DNA of 64,000 nucleotides from Methyloferula stellata AR4 (lineage in GTDB: Bacteria > Pseudomonadota > Alphaproteobacteria > Rhizobiales > Beijerinckiaceae). Location of the stretch: positions 2,062,001-2,126,000 of the forward strand of contig NZ_ARWA01000001.1 of NCBI RefSeq assembly GCF_000385335.1. The letters run 5' to 3'. Positions 5,307 to 53,765 of this stretch are shown one piece after another; the first letter of the stretch is position 1, and every line of letters begins with the position of its first letter. The notes beneath the pieces were generated by a model. It was given only the letters and a program-made list of their open reading frames with translations. It was not told the DNA's origin and searched no databases. The position numbers and the translations under genes are program-made.

Positions 5307-6395
5307 ATGCGTGTCGACCTCTTCGATTTCAAGCTTCCGCCGGACCGCATCGCCTTGCGTCCGGCAGAACCGCGCGATGCGGCGCGGCTTCTCGTGGTGC
5401 GGCCGAGCGCCGCCCCAATGCTCGAAGACCGCACGATCGCCAATCTGCGCAACCTGCTTCAGGCAGGCGATGTGCTCGTCGTCAATGACACACGGGTGAT
5501 TCCGGCCAGCCTTGAAGGCACGCGTCTTCGGGGCGAGGCCGAAGCACATATCCATGTGACGCTGCACAAGCGCGAGTCAGATTCGAGCTGGCGCGCCTTC
5601 GTCAAACCGGCGAAGAAATTGAAGATCGGCGAGACGATCGTCTTCACGGCAAACGCTGATGCCGATCCGGCGCCGCTTCATGCCGAAGTACGCGAAAAGT
5701 CCGGCGAGGGCGAGGTGCTCTTAGCCTTTTCCTTGGAAGGTACGGCGCTCGATGAAGCGCTCGAGCATTTCGGGCAGATGCCGCTTCCGCCTTATATTGC
5801 CGGAAAGCGCGCAATCGACGCGCGCGACGCCGAGGATTATCAAACCTTGTTCGCCGCGCGCTCCGGCGCGGTGGCGGCACCGACGGCGAGCCTGCATTTT
5901 ACCCCGGCGCTCATCGCTGCGATCGAAGCGCAAGGCGTCAATATCTGCCGGGTGACGCTGCATGTCGGCGCCGGCACCTTTCTGCCAGTGAAGGCCGAGG
6001 ATACGGAGCAGCACCGCATGCATGCCGAATGGGGCGAGGTGAGCGCCGAGGCAGCCGAAACGCTCAACAAGGTGCGCGCGGCGGGCGGGCGGATCGTCGC
6101 CGCGGGCACGACCAGCCTGCGTATTCTCGAATCCGCAGCCGCGCCCTCGGGCGAGGTCAGAGCGTTCAAAGGCGACACCTCGATCTTCATCACGCCGGGC
6201 TATAAGTTTCGCGCCGTCGATCTGCTCTTGACCAATTTCCATCTGCCGCGCTCGACGCTTTTCATGCTGGTCTCAGCTTTCTCCGGATTGGATGTCATGC
6301 GTTCCGCCTATAGTCACGCGATCGCGTCGCACTACCGCTTCTACAGCTATGGCGACGCCTGCCTTCTGCATCGCGCTCCCGAGGCCGGCGTATGA
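5307..6395 (+). CDS. queA: S-adenosylmethionine:tRNA ribosyltransferase-isomerase
   Basis: 362 residues. QueA transfers the ribosyl part of SAM to preQ1 in tRNA, forming epoxyqueuosine at position 34. The start [24 protein letters not shown] at ATG 5307 is the canonical N-terminus; longer frames would run into the repeat. Conserved blocks include [63 protein letters not shown] and [13 protein letters not shown]. It overlaps tgt by 4 bp (ATGA), so the two queuosine steps are translationally coupled. Confidence 0.97.
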
Positions 6396-48690: not shown

Positions 48691-48988
48691 GCGGGCGTGG
48701 CGAAATCGGTAGACGCAACGGACTTGAATGTTTGAGTGCTCTCGCGGGAAACCGGGGAAGTAGAACTGCCCAAATTCGGGGAACCCTTTCACATGGCAAT
48801 CCCGAGCCAAGCCCGAAAGGGAAGGTGTAGAGACTAGACGGGCAGCACCTAAGGCTTCGAGCACGGGGCTAAGGTGAAGGGATAGTCCAGACCACAAACG
48901 TCGGACATGGCGGCGGCGAAAGCCGTAGCTGGTATGAAAATCCGTAGGGCGAAAGCCCATGGGGGTTCGAGTCCCCCCGCCCGCACCA
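48691..48988 (+). tRNA. tRNA-Leu(UAA), split by a group I intron
   Basis: Exon 1 is 48,691-48,725 and exon 2 is 48,937-48,988 (87 nt when joined, CCA encoded). Acceptor GCGGGCG / CGCCCGC, D arm GCG...CGC, a long variable arm (GGGC-GAAA-GCCC) and T arm GGGGG-TTCGAGT-CCCCC are all perfect. The joined anticodon arm is ACGGA-CTTAAAA-TCCGT, giving anticodon UAA. The split falls between U34 and A35, as in the cyanobacterial tRNA-Leu intron. The phage integrase gene begins 60 bp beyond the CCA. Confidence 0.95.
48726..48936 (+). ncRNA. Group I self-splicing intron in tRNA-Leu(UAA)
   Basis: 211 nt with no open reading frame. It follows U (exon end) and ends in G (48,936). The internal guide GAGT at 48,734-48,737 pairs with exon ACTT giving the required G-U at the 5' splice site. 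Core strings GGCAATCCCGAGCCAAGCC, AGGTGTAGAGACTAGACGGG and GGATAGTCC match the P4/P6, P7 and P3/P8 elements of the Anabaena tRNA-Leu(UAA) intron, as I recall that sequence. The G-binding P7 pair AGACT/AGTCC is intact, so splicing activity is likely. Confidence 0.93.
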
Positions 48989-49033: not shown

Positions 49034-49065
49034 GTCCCACCGTGTTTTTTAGGTGGGACTTTTTT
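49034..49065 (+). terminator. Rho-independent terminator after tRNA-Leu
   Basis: GTCCCACC / GGTGGGAC stem around a 10-nt loop, followed by TTTTTT. It covers the last codons of the opposing integrase gene and would end both transcripts. Confidence 0.75.
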
Positions 49066-50164
49066 GTTCGCGATTTAGGCTCGCGGCCAATTTGCGCATC
49101 GCGCTCGCGGCCATCAATTTTTGCCGGGCCGCGCGCGTATAGACCTTGATCTGATCGGGGTCCAAATGACCGGTGATCGCGCCGATCTCTTCCTCGCTGC
49201 ATCCAAGTTCTGCCAGCCGCGCCGATGTCGCCTTGCGCAGCCCGTGGGCCGAGCAATGCGGCAATCCGGCGTCATCGCACCAGGTGCGAAAGGTATTGCC
49301 GAATCCGTTTGCGCTATAGGGCTTGCCGTAATTGGTGACGAGAAATTGCATCTGGCCGATGGCCGATGCCGCGATCGATTCGGCGAGCGGCTCGATGATC
49401 GGGATCTCAAGCGTGGTCTTTGTCTTGTTCTGCGTGAAGACGAGCCAACCGTCATCGGTCACATGCTGGCGGCCGAATTGCACGATGTCCGAGCGCCGCT
49501 GCGCCGTATAAAGCAGAAGATCAAAGGCGAGCCGCGGCCTCGTCCCGATCGGATATTTGGCTTCGAATTGCGCGACCTCTTTCAATGTCCATGAGTGAAA
49601 TCCCTTCGTCTCATGCGACAGCATTTTGACCTTGGCCGCCGGGTTATAGATCGTCTCTTCGGGGCTTTCCTCCTGCTTCCAGTTGAACACGCGGCGTATT
49701 TCCCGCACGCGATTATTGGCGGCGACGGGCGTATCGGCCTTGCGGTCACGCAAAATGATCACGTGCTTCGCGCCAAAGGTCACGATCTTGCAATCGCCCA
49801 TCAGAAGCGGCGATTTGGGGCTGATCGGTTCAAGCCAGCAATGATTGAGGATGCCGCGCACTGTCCGTTGGCGGATCGGATTATTGTCGGCCTTGAACGT
49901 CGTCGAGCTGAGATAGTCCTCGCAGAGCGCCCGAAACGTCCCCGGAATCGCCAGGACGGCTTTCTGAGGGGCGGCGCCCTTCGATCCCGGCTTGGCGAGC
50001 TGGCGGCCCTCCCGCGCGGCCTGATAGGCGTCCAGAAAGCCAGGATCGTCCGGCGCGAGCCAGATCCGGATCTTCTTCTTTGCCCCAGGAAGCCGCACAT
50101 AATATCTGTGCGTGTCATGGCGCGAGGTGTCGCGGACCAGATATTTGAAGCGTATGTCAGCCAT
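49049..50164 (-). CDS. int: Tyrosine-type site-specific integrase
   Basis: 371 residues from ATG 50,164. MADIRFKYLVRDTSRHDTHRYYVRLPG is the usual N-terminal arm-binding start; longer in-frame extension is antisense-like. Catalytic residues: Arg in LLLYTAQRRSDIVQFG, His-x-x-Arg in SAHGLRKATSARLAELG, His in GHLDPDQIKVYTRAAR with Tyr nucleophile. It recombines the element with the tRNA-Leu 3' end. Its 3' end lies inside a terminator shared with the tRNA. Confidence 0.93.
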   Translation of the reverse strand: MADIRFKYLVRDTSRHDTHRYYVRLPGAKKKIRIWLAPDDPGFLDAYQAAREGRQLAKPGSKGAAPQKAVLAIPGTFRALCEDYLSSTTFKADNNPIRQRTVRGILNHCWLEPISPKSPLLMGDCKIVTFGAKHVIILRDRKADTPVAANNRVREIRRVFNWKQEESPEETIYNPAAKVKMLSHETKGFHSWTLKEVAQFEAKYPIGTRPRLAFDLLLYTAQRRSDIVQFGRQHVTDDGWLVFTQNKTKTTLEIPIIEPLAESIAASAIGQMQFLVTNYGKPYSANGFGNTFRTWCDDAGLPHCSAHGLRKATSARLAELGCSEEEIGAITGHLDPDQIKVYTRAARQKLMAASAMRKLAASLNREQKSPT

Positions 50165-50174
50165 TTCTCGGCTT

Positions 50175-50435
50175 TCAGAGCGCGACATCGGCATAAGGAT
50201 CATGCTCGATCTCATTCTGGGCGAAAGATTCGTCGCCTGGCAAGGCCGAGAAGGCGGCTTCGACGCGCCGGCGGTCCCAAACGGTGCGGCCATTGATGCG
50301 TTTTGGCGGCGGCATGCGCCCGTCATGGACCATTTCATCGAAGAGGGACGACGACACACCGATATAATTGGCCGCCTCGGTTCTTGACAGGCCGATGCGA
50401 TCGGCCGGCGGAATGATTGACGCACGTTTGGTCAT
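50175..50435 (-). CDS. AlpA-like excisionase/regulator (small HTH)
   Basis: 86 residues from ATG 50,435, 10 bp before the integrase gene on the same strand. RIGLSRTEAANYIGVSSSLFDEMVHDGRMPPPKRINGRTVWDRRRVEAAF is a MerR/excisionase-type winged helix. In prophages and satellites such proteins direct excision or activate int. It is paired with int in a single transcript. The other AlpA-like gene (57,865-58,086) is unrelated in detail. Confidence 0.82.
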   Translation of the reverse strand: MTKRASIIPPADRIGLSRTEAANYIGVSSSLFDEMVHDGRMPPPKRINGRTVWDRRRVEAAFSALPGDESFAQNEIEHDPYADVAL

Positions 50436-50577
50436 GATGGAGTCTCGACGGGTACGCAGATACTGATTGGCGAGCGGGGCAGGCACTGACAGTGCGGAGA
50501 ACCGGCAAACACGTTCTCGCGGCGGCCGCCATGCCGCGAGGGAACGTCGCCCGGAACGATCTGAGCGGCGCGATGCG

Positions 50578-51153
50578 TCATGCCAATGATCCGAAAACGT
50601 TGCGGCTTTCAGCAGCAATCGTGGCACGCAGATCATCCCTGGCTTTCTCCAGAACGCGCGCGGCGCCATGTGCGCCATCGCGCGCAATAGCAGAAGCGCT
50701 TTCGTCGGCGCACGTCGGGAGCTGATCAATCTTTCTGACGACGCTTTCTGCGAAACGAGTGATCGCCTCTTCGACACGCTCGATCAAAACGAGCTTGCCC
50801 TCGCGTTCCAGAAGTTCGAGTTCCTTCAGATCGGCATCATAAGCGGCGCGGCGCGCCTGCTCTCGCGAGAGAACAAGGTCTTGCTGCTTGAATGGCCAGA
50901 CCGCAGAGCGGTTGGCGCCGGTCCCATTCAATTCGCGGACGATGTCAGTTGTCTCGCCCGTGACCCTGTCGAATTCGGCGAGGTTGATAAGCTTTGAGCC
51001 CTGCGGACCAGGGCGGCTCGTTAGCAAGCCTTGTTCTATAAATCGTTTGACGCGGCGAGAAACAGCAGCCTTGTCGACGTCCCGTTGCCGAGCGAGTTCT
51101 GAGACCGAAACCCAGAGACCGGTAAGCTCACCGTTGTTGCTGTCTGTTGACAC
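50578..51153 (-). CDS. Nu1-like terminase small subunit-type DNA-binding protein
   Basis: 191 residues. The N-terminal HTH reads LWVSVSELARQRDVDKAAVSRRVKRFIEQGLL; a linker with LSREQARRAAYDADLKELELLEREGKLVLIERVEEAI and the C-terminal VVRKIDQLPTCADESASAIARDG...LEKARDDLRATIA follow the Nu1/TerS layout (HTH, helical multimerisation region, packaging-related helix). There is no large terminase nearby. A plain MarR-like repressor is the alternative. Confidence 0.55.
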   Translation of the reverse strand: MSTDSNNGELTGLWVSVSELARQRDVDKAAVSRRVKRFIEQGLLTSRPGPQGSKLINLAEFDRVTGETTDIVRELNGTGANRSAVWPFKQQDLVLSREQARRAAYDADLKELELLEREGKLVLIERVEEAITRFAESVVRKIDQLPTCADESASAIARDGAHGAARVLEKARDDLRATIAAESRNVFGSLA

Positions 51154-51320
51154 GCGTTGCCCCTGTTGACCCTAAAAAAACAAGCACTTGCTACCGTTTT
51201 TAGACATGCCTTCGGCCTCGCAGGGTTTTAAAAACGGGGGAAGGACCCGTGGCCGGATATCGGCAAAATCTGCAATCAAAGCATCCACCCTTCTCGTTCT
51301 GCTTGCCATTCGCGCGATCA

Positions 51321-53765
51321 TCATTGTGGCCCGCGGCCTCCGGGCGCGGCCTCGGGCATTGACGTGCCGACGTTCAATTGGATGTTTTTGCCGATGGACG
51401 GCGAGTTCTTCACCGATTGTACGACCTTCAGCAGCTCGCTACTTGCATCGACGTGGATCGTGATATTCACGGAGCCCTGGCCTTCGAGTTGCGCGGTGAT
51501 CTGATCCGGCCGAAGGTGAACCTCCAACGGCATCGCCGGATGGTGGTCATCCGGCAGGTCCGAAGGACGGCGCGGCGGAAGCGGCACATCAACCTCGTGC
51601 GGCATTGCCCGATGCACCCATGACGGCGGCACAGTGTCGAGCCCAAACGGTTCGAAGGGCTCGCGGCCTTCATCTATCCAGCGACGGCCGCCGCGGCCAT
51701 AGGTGTAGTGGCCCGCCCGATCGCTATCAAAACCTGCGCCGCCGTGGGCCTTCGCGTCAGGAATATCAGAAAGCTTCGTGAAGCCGATGATCGGGTCAGG
51801 AAGGGCCATTGCACCGCGTCCGCGTGTGCGCGTCTGCGGGCCGACTTGGGTATTGAACCAATAATCGGCACCCGCCGCCACCGCGCCGAGCGCCAGGAGG
51901 GGCAACAGCCCGACGCTGGTGCCAGCCGCGGCGGCAGCCCCAGGCGCCCCGGCGCGGAGCGCGCCGGTTGCCAAGGGCGTTGCCGCACCGCCGACCCCGA
52001 GCCTCACAGCAGCGGCCGTCAAAGCCGCTGCCGATTCATCGAGAGCTACAGCCGAGGCCGACAAGCCGAAGCCCGACATGAGATTCTGAACACTCTTGCC
52101 GGCCACATAGAGCGTGCCGCCGGCACCGAGCGCCGCCGTGAGTTGGTGAGCGACCGGCGGCAGTTCGGCAAAGGCCTGCGTTGCCCTCGCGGCGCCGTCG
52201 GCCAGAGCCGTCAGCATCCCGCCCTTGCCACCATTGTCGAGCGAGCGACCGATCGCCGTCTCCAAATTCTTAATCGCACCTTCGAACCGTGAAACCGCGC
52301 CGTCGAAGCCTGCCATCCGTTGGCTCGACACATCCGCCGCAAAACCCTCCGAATGGTTCTTCAACTGGTCGAGGAACTGTTGGAAGAGTTCGGGATCGCC
52401 GATCGCGGCACGGATGCGCGCGCCTTGTTTCGATCCCCAGATCACGTTGGCAAGGTTCGGACTTTTGGCGACAGCCGCCATGAGATCAACGAACAGGCGC
52501 TGCGTGTCGACCCCCGCCGCCGAGGCATCACGGTAACGGCGCGCCTCACCCGCGATGGACTTCTTCGACTTCGCATCGTCACCGCCGAGCTGATCGCCAA
52601 GCACCTGCATGATGGCCGGCATGAACCGTGCCGCGCTCGCGACGACGGCTTTATCGTCAAAGACCTTCTGCAGCGCCCTCTTCGCGCCCGCGTCGAGCGC
52701 GACGCCATATTTTGCGGCGATATCCTCGGCGAAGGTGCCGGCGTCCATAGGACGTGGCCCTTGCGTCTGATACTTTGAATAATCGATATGCTGGGCTAGC
52801 ATCGCTGTACGCGCGGCGGCTGTCGGGCTGAGGAGGTTGGCCACGAGCGCCCGGCCCGCGGTGCCCATCTCAGCTCCGCCCATATTGGATTTTTTGCCGA
52901 TAGCGCCGAAGGCCAAGAGTTGTTCTTCTGACAGGCCGGCCTTGCTGAAGGGATTGGCGCTGAATTTATAAAGCTCGACCAGGTCATCGTAATTCATACC
53001 GCTGATCTTCGATCCCTTAACCAGAAGATCGGCCGTGCGCGTAGCGTTCCTGACCGCGGCGTCATAATTGCTCGTGTCTTTGTGAAACCCGAACATCGCG
53101 CCCTCAAGCGCCTTCACGCTCTCCGGCAGCGACTTGTCCATGGCCATACCGATCGTCGCAGCGACGTCGGTGAGCGCCCGGACTTGGTCAACATTCAACC
53201 CGCGTGCGGCCAGCTCGCGCTGCGCCTCCAAAAATTGGATGTCATTAAATTTGGTTGTGCCGCCGCCATGGATCGCCTGGCGCACCAAAGGCTCTTGCTG
53301 CTCATCCGTGATCCCCATCACGGCGCGGCCGTAGCGCCTTTCTCGGTCATACTCTCTATATGTTTCCGCGATCGCTTTGCCGGCTGATTTCGCATGTGCC
53401 GCGACTCGTTCCAGCGCAAACCCGACGGCGAGGTCGCGGACCTGGCTCATGCTGGTCATCGCCTTGCCAAGCTGAGTCACATGCGCCGCCGCCTTGTCGG
53501 CGCCGGCGCCAAGCCGCGACATGCGTTCGATCATGCGGCTCGATGCGACCTTGTTCTCAAAATTTGAGAGACCGTCGACCATTTTGCGCGAAGCCAGCTG
53601 ATCGCCAAGGCGGCCAAACGACCGCGTCGCGCGATCGATGGCCCCCGTCGACGTGCCGACTGTGTTTATTTTGCGTGCGAGGTCGGTGAGCTTTTTCTCC
53701 GCCTCGGCGACGCCCTTGGTTTCGGCCGAAATGACGGCGCGGGCCTCGAGGATGGTTCCACTCAT
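51321..53765 (-). CDS. Phage tail tape-measure protein
   Basis: 814 residues. Helical N-terminal half (EARAVISAETKGVAEAEKKLTDLARKIN and VAAHAKSAGKAIAETYREYDRE), a hydrophobic Ala/Gly-rich central segment (about residues 550-650) that can insert in the host membrane, and a Gly/Pro-rich tail. Its position directly after the frameshifting tail chaperone, overlapping it by ATGA, is the universal phage order. By the usual length rule the tail would be around 120 nm. Confidence 0.85.
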   Translation of the reverse strand: MSGTILEARAVISAETKGVAEAEKKLTDLARKINTVGTSTGAIDRATRSFGRLGDQLASRKMVDGLSNFENKVASSRMIERMSRLGAGADKAAAHVTQLGKAMTSMSQVRDLAVGFALERVAAHAKSAGKAIAETYREYDRERRYGRAVMGITDEQQEPLVRQAIHGGGTTKFNDIQFLEAQRELAARGLNVDQVRALTDVAATIGMAMDKSLPESVKALEGAMFGFHKDTSNYDAAVRNATRTADLLVKGSKISGMNYDDLVELYKFSANPFSKAGLSEEQLLAFGAIGKKSNMGGAEMGTAGRALVANLLSPTAAARTAMLAQHIDYSKYQTQGPRPMDAGTFAEDIAAKYGVALDAGAKRALQKVFDDKAVVASAARFMPAIMQVLGDQLGGDDAKSKKSIAGEARRYRDASAAGVDTQRLFVDLMAAVAKSPNLANVIWGSKQGARIRAAIGDPELFQQFLDQLKNHSEGFAADVSSQRMAGFDGAVSRFEGAIKNLETAIGRSLDNGGKGGMLTALADGAARATQAFAELPPVAHQLTAALGAGGTLYVAGKSVQNLMSGFGLSASAVALDESAAALTAAAVRLGVGGAATPLATGALRAGAPGAAAAAGTSVGLLPLLALGAVAAGADYWFNTQVGPQTRTRGRGAMALPDPIIGFTKLSDIPDAKAHGGAGFDSDRAGHYTYGRGGRRWIDEGREPFEPFGLDTVPPSWVHRAMPHEVDVPLPPRRPSDLPDDHHPAMPLEVHLRPDQITAQLEGQGSVNITIHVDASSELLKVVQSVKNSPSIGKNIQLNVGTSMPEAAPGGRGPQ

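Follow-up and report, generated by a model that had tools for sequence, protein, structure and literature searches.

The tRNA-Leu(UAA) gene of Methyloferula stellata AR4 is interrupted between U34 and A35, the site at which cyanobacteria and plastids also carry an intron in this gene, and the locus raises two questions: whether an alphaproteobacterial gene so interrupted yields a functional tRNA, and what the origin of its intron is. In cyanobacteria and plastids the trnL intron is often called ancient. The answer that we favour, with a probability of about 0.9, is that the precursor would splice itself to give a tRNA-Leu(UAA) of which the genome has no other detected copy, and that the intron derives from a mobile bacterial pool, not from a recent cyanobacterial gift; the part concerning origin, which is read from a phylogenetic tree, is held less firmly than the part concerning splicing.

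The interrupted gene and its intron

All coordinates are positions in the window, the 64,000-nt stretch of AR4 DNA that was analysed, on the + strand unless stated (Table 1). ARAGORN without introns called no tRNA at 48691-48988, but with introns allowed it placed a tRNA-Leu(taa) at exactly these positions (1476-1773 of locus L001), with a 211-nt intron whose first base is base 36 of the gene; the tRNA is complete once this intron is removed, as the original prediction had it. The borders of the intron were placed so that the anticodon loop has 7 bases, a U precedes the intron and the intron closes with a G; the U.G pair of P1 at the 5' splice site and the terminal G are hence present by choice. 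The predicted P1 pairs the intron guide GAGU with exon ACUU, with U34.G at the cut, in agreement with the U-G foreseen for it. The hairpin after the gene was recognised by eye, and a consensus terminator scan, limited to loops of 3-8, gave no site there.

Table 1. Features of the AR4 tRNA-Leu(UAA) locus and its surroundings (window positions).
Feature	Position	Strand	Remarks
probable miaA	46121-47062		Pfam IPPT; 1.6 kb upstream of tRNA
interrupted tRNA-Leu(UAA) gene	48691-48988	+	complete once intron removed
5' exon of tRNA-Leu(UAA)	48691..48725	+	tRNA positions 1-34; 3' end ...ACGGACUU with U34
Intron_gpI match	48716-48905	+	RF00028
group I intron	48726..48936	+	211 nt; starts GAAUGUUUGAGU, last base G; Rfam match, P1
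intron core for model R1	48747..48899 (L001 1532-1684)	+	GGAAAC of P2 loop through P3-P8
3' exon of tRNA-Leu(UAA)	48937..48988	+	A35 to encoded CCA; long variable arm
probable terminator	49034..49065	+	hairpin GTCCCACC / GGTGGGAC, loop of 10, then six T; by eye
prophage remnant	49049-53765		directly after tRNA
integrase	49049-50425	-	prophage remnant; gene ends 60 bases past tRNA
terminase small subunit-like	50578-51153		prophage remnant
tape-measure-like	51321-53765		prophage remnant

Sequence analysis confirms the element as a group I intron within tRNA-Leu(UAA), as had been proposed. The Rfam model Intron_gpI (RF00028) scores 56.9 bits (gathering threshold 50; E 8.4e-12), the core helices are present, and the match is the single one in the AR4 genome (one contig, 4,235,448 bases). 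Our own covariance model, R1, which had the AR4 sequence among its training sequences, gives 159.4 bits.

Covariation was evaluated by aligning 19 intron cores (15 from tRNA-Leu and 4 from tRNA-Thr genes) across helices P3, P4, P5, P6, P6a, P7 and P8, the last with its extension. For 33 named core pairs, 98.1% of the cells are paired; 12 pairs are doubly changed versus 6.7 in shuffles, and so are 50 cells, compared with 16.8 in shuffles, none of 500 of which reached that number, and with 4-13 in controls with slid partners. The P7 pseudoknot is paired in all cells and has two doubly changed pairs, and P4 and P6, being invariant, are uninformative either way. A weaker measure, the number of further pair types, is 24 versus 20.6 in shuffles (31/500 as high). 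Folding of the precursor is more stable than that of 200 shuffled sequences (z -3.07), its minimum-energy fold does not contain the active P1, and in the alignment the AR4 copy has a P2 that exceeds that of its relatives by two bases. In an anchored guide test, which compared the three bases that follow the guide G in 152 introns of nine host types with few Lys rows, the own exon beat dealt-out exons (0/2000), and Lys(UUU) introns scored higher still with the exon of Lys(CUU); with free guide position the test is weak (own exon 3.25, other exons 2.76, and Leu introns 3.26 with an Arg exon). Judged from this sequence evidence, the AR4 intron is very probably active as a self-splicing ribozyme.

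The overall layout and motifs presumably resemble those of the IC3 intron in tRNA-Ile(CAU) of Azoarcus, which has a different host gene. Among alphaproteobacterial tRNA-Arg(CCU) introns, a kind also known from Agrobacterium and Bartonella, two from related genomes (L033 and L054) fit the same core model as the AR4 intron and have its 3' end ...GAAGTGGTATG, but are inserted after U36 of tRNA-Arg instead of after U34 of tRNA-Leu. Cyanobacterial introns mostly end in ...GAATG, whereas the AR4 intron ends in ...GGTATG, and those read are 221-312 nt long, compared with 211 nt in AR4. Putative group I introns have also been described in tRNA-Leu(UAA) and tRNA-Arg(UCU) of Beggiatoa and Thiomargarita (PMC4853749, citing MacGregor 2013), whose Leu(UAA) introns differ from that of AR4 in having gammaproteobacterial hosts.

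Distribution among genomes and host tRNA genes

The AR4 intron belongs to a known intron type, and the more interesting part is its wider distribution. The location had been thought uncommon, which the genome samples contradict: with the Rfam model, 31 of 249 sampled genomes of the host's order have a group I match, located in Leu(UAA) in 19, Thr(GGU) in seven, Arg(CCU) in three and Leu(CAA) in one, with one lacking an assigned host. Because the training set of R1 came from Leu and Thr introns of a single order, the model undercounts distant introns, and searches across more than 40 genomes used strict filters, so that their counts are lower bounds. With R1, intron cores were found, mostly in tRNA genes, in at least 49/385 sampled genomes of the host's class and at least 41/398 of its phylum. 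For the host's family the figure is at least 29 of 119 genomes. Leu(UAA) introns occur in 21 of these, two of which carry an additional one in Arg(CCU) or Thr(UGU); in the remaining eight the host gene is Arg(CCU) (5), Thr(UGU) (2) or Lys(CUU) (1).

An uninterrupted tRNA-Leu(UAA) is present in 66 of the 119 family genomes, and it accompanies an interrupted gene in just one (G1021) of the 21 genomes that carry the intron. Both states nevertheless occur within seven genera of the family, and genus g583 has up to three types of tRNA-Leu(UAA) gene. Within genus g567, one genome (G1014) is intronless and another (G979) has a 218-nt intron, with identical 82-base exons (without CCA); the next downstream gene is common to both, whereas the upstream genes and immediate flanks differ.

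Among named genomes, a search pattern built on the 3' joint that an interrupted tRNA-Leu(UAA) would have matched at least 119 stretches, of which 80 loci were examined. Among the matches listed, 76 of these 80 have an R1 intron core (the exceptions being L180, L201, L203 and L234), and the hosts, taken from record titles, include Bradyrhizobium, Caulobacter, Phenylobacterium, Rhodovulum, Hoeflea, Reyranella, Enterovirga (E. aerilata has a 216-nt intron, L232), Methylocystis, Hydrogenophaga, Achromobacter, Xenophilus, Stutzerimonas and Carnimonas; at higher ranks, the matches listed come from Acidobacteria, Bacteroidales, Clostridia, cyanobacteria, and beta- and gammaproteobacteria. Many of the named-genome hosts of Leu(UAA) introns are metagenome assemblies.

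Leu(UAA) is the label of 47 of the 100 cores obtained in the genome searches, a few of which have no assigned host and some of which were labelled by hand; the other hosts are Arg(CCU), Arg(UCU), Thr(GGU), Thr(CGU), Lys(UUU), Lys(CUU), Leu(CAA) and Met/Ile(CAU), to which the family sample adds Thr(UGU). The 5' cut follows a U at position 33, 34, 35 or 36, a rule that was built into the host assignment, and in three Leu(CAA) introns (L125, L158 and L160) it seems to follow C34, with C-G instead of U.G. Introns were seen in tRNA-Thr genes (GGU, CGU and UGU: L041, L043, L046, L049, L051, L052, L057, L137, L143, L299, L302 and L323) and, mostly after U35, in tRNA-Lys genes (UUU and CUU: L091, L096, L097, L130, L133, L138-L141, L144 and L308). 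In each of four genomes (G960, G942, G992 and G1032) more than one tRNA gene is interrupted, either two or three of them; those of G960 are Leu(UAA), Leu(CAA) and Met/Ile(CAU). Locus L174 has two tRNA-Leu intron cores on opposite strands about 340 bases apart (5577-5721, +; 6064-6232, -), the 3' part of the second gene not being seen, and one contig (L032) of the 100-contig genome G168, possibly a foreign one, has two Intron_gpI matches 1.2 kb apart, with no tRNA around the one that was examined.

By one account, bacterial group I introns were known in four tRNA genes as of 2007 (PMC1995217), and another mentions tRNA-Ile(CAU) introns in Acidovorax and Burkholderia (PMC8450103). A literature search, in which older journal papers were sparsely covered, found no report of alphaproteobacterial tRNA-Leu(UAA) introns. 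A gammaproteobacterial case was reportedly described by Vepritskiy in 2002, and Paquin is said to have argued in 1999 for transposition and horizontal transmission of the alphaproteobacterial Arg introns.

Phylogeny and origin of the intron

From 181 core matches (81 from named loci and 100 from the genome searches), 12 of the 81 were left out as split, truncated, low-scoring or HNH-bearing, leaving 169 rows, of which 17 had host labels set or withheld by hand, including three later assigned to Leu(CAA). Five rows were removed before a first tree and 33 of the remaining 164 before a second (long branches, near copies and one host-unassigned row). The second tree (IQ-TREE; 131 cores, 195 columns) is unrooted, with 40 of 128 branches unsupported and the bootstrap not settled. 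The ten cyanobacterial introns, among which the L197 row was classed on the strength of its title, form one clade (100/100, branch length 1.93), and the eight alphaproteobacterial Arg(CCU) introns another (96/99); Thr(GGU) introns fall in two places and Leu(UAA) introns in many.

Three branches of the free tree (100/100, 100/99 and 99/88) part the AR4 intron from the cyanobacterial clade, and another (99/92) parts it from the alphaproteobacterial Arg(CCU) and Thr(GGU) introns; between these branches lie 25 rows including AR4, namely 20 alphaproteobacterial Leu, three acidobacterial Leu and two Met/Ile introns. In approximately unbiased (AU) tests, a single clade of all Leu(UAA) introns was rejected (p 8.6e-5), which implies that introns moved between tRNA genes, as was a single clade that joins every non-cyanobacterial Leu intron (p 2.7e-5); which tRNA gene an intron occupies is thus not strictly tied to its lineage. 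The AR4 intron may accordingly be viewed as drawn from a bacterial pool that would have moved among tRNA genes and lineages, at times perhaps along with the whole tRNA gene. A candidate marker for the latter, that the intron comes with the anticodon arm [A/T]CGGACTT, holds in the family, where 0/67 uninterrupted copies have the arm, and fails in the class, where an uninterrupted copy with a CGG arm is present in 58 of 372 genomes; whole-gene transfer is for this reason put forward as a suggestion.

On the question raised by the original prediction, whether the tRNA-Leu intron is ancient or transferred, the free tree separates the AR4 intron from the cyanobacterial ones, but the AU test in which AR4 alone was forced together with the ten cyanobacterial introns does not reject that pairing (p 0.24). 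Because of this result and because the tree is unrooted, the data accommodate common descent from an old intron, transfer, and a site that was entered twice. The Leu(UAA) intron might be ancestral to cyanobacteria and proteobacteria and have been passed on for the most part by vertical descent, with losses; the introns in Arg, Thr and Lys genes would then have jumped out of Leu at a later time. This explanation, which we rate as doubtful without dismissing it, would account for a site common to loci of Cyanobacteria, Pseudomonadota, Acidobacteriota, Bacteroidota and Bacillota and for the position of the Arg(CCU) clade and Thr(GGU) introns on a side of the tree otherwise mostly Leu(UAA), but sits poorly with the patchiness seen at genus level in the family, with the multiple gene types within g583, and with the HNH genes inside some Leu introns, which offer a possible route of spreading.

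An HNH-motif ORF was recognised by eye in six of eight long Leu(UAA) introns checked (L186, L190, L199, L235, L207 and L211), which are about 700 nt long, and each of the three of these ORFs that were scanned matches a Pfam HNH family above the cut-off. The HNH gene is antisense to the tRNA in four gammaproteobacterial loci and sense in L207 and L211. No homing endonuclease gene is present in the AR4 intron, which at 211 nt is too short for one. Tentatively, U34/A35 of tRNA-Leu(UAA) could be a bacterial homing site, to which HNH-bearing introns such as these, from gammaproteobacterial and Bacteroidales genomes, carried the intron across phyla, with small ORF-less copies as remnants and retargeted guides reaching at least eight other anticodons. 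If so, the cyanobacterial and plastid trnL intron would be one old branch of a still-mobile family. With empty and filled alleles within genera and HNH forms elsewhere, the question of ancient or transferred introns becomes testable outside cyanobacteria.

A transfer in which AR4 obtained a cyanobacterial tRNA-Leu(UAA) intron and kept it at the homologous site is not favoured. The shared gene and position and the unrejected sister pairing speak for it, but besides the three supported branches noted above, the highest identity of the AR4 intron (91-92%) is with introns from another family of the same order, and the alphaproteobacterial Leu introns as a group, when forced together with the cyanobacterial ones, are weakly rejected (p 0.037), all of which makes it improbable; origin from the mobile bacterial pool is preferred.

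Proposed splicing, tRNA supply and neighbourhood

Among the 44 Rfam tRNA matches of the AR4 genome, read with ARAGORN, the leucine anticodons are CAA, GAG, TAG and CAG, with no UAA, and a pattern for uninterrupted tRNA-Leu(UAA) has no match in the genome; the intact second copy that would have spoken against the original prediction was thus looked for and not found. UUA codons are in use, numbering 15 in 10 of the 20 long ORFs (mechanically delimited) to the left of the tRNA gene, and since no other tRNA-Leu(UAA) was found to read them, the interrupted gene must be spliced. As we envisage it, the gene and intron would be transcribed into one precursor, within which the intron would form a small group I ribozyme of the kind found in tRNA genes of Azoarcus and Agrobacterium; the ribozyme would bind guanosine and cut after U34, at the U.G pair of P1, and U34 would then be joined to A35 to give the sole tRNA-Leu(UAA) detected in the genome, 87 nt long with its CCA. 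Guanosine-dependent self-splicing and the function of the mature tRNA are what we infer from sequence, and a relative in tRNA-Arg(CCU) of Bartonella (BbgpI) is described as self-splicing in vitro and splicing in vivo (PMC7717549). That the AR4 gene is instead a dead copy, with UUA read by another tRNA, is very improbable given the intact exon stems, encoded CCA and retained conserved core positions, and a genome that uses UUA codons and has no other tRNA with a UAA anticodon.

A tRNA that should be essential is overlooked by ARAGORN at its default settings, and such introns are described as lying outside the design of tRNAscan-SE (PMC8450103).

The tRNA gene is directly followed by a prophage remnant (Table 1), and a related gene also follows the intron-bearing tRNA-Leu in genome G1008 (L344). 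Because the integrase gene ends so close to the tRNA, a duplicate of the 3' end of the tRNA was sought as a mark of prophage attachment: there is none within the window, the only one in the whole genome is in tRNA-Leu(UAG), with two mismatches, and no clean prophage borders emerged when a genome of the same genus was compared. MiaA modifies A37 of tRNAs such as tRNA-Leu(UAA), and the proximity of the probable miaA gene to this tRNA is probably a coincidence.
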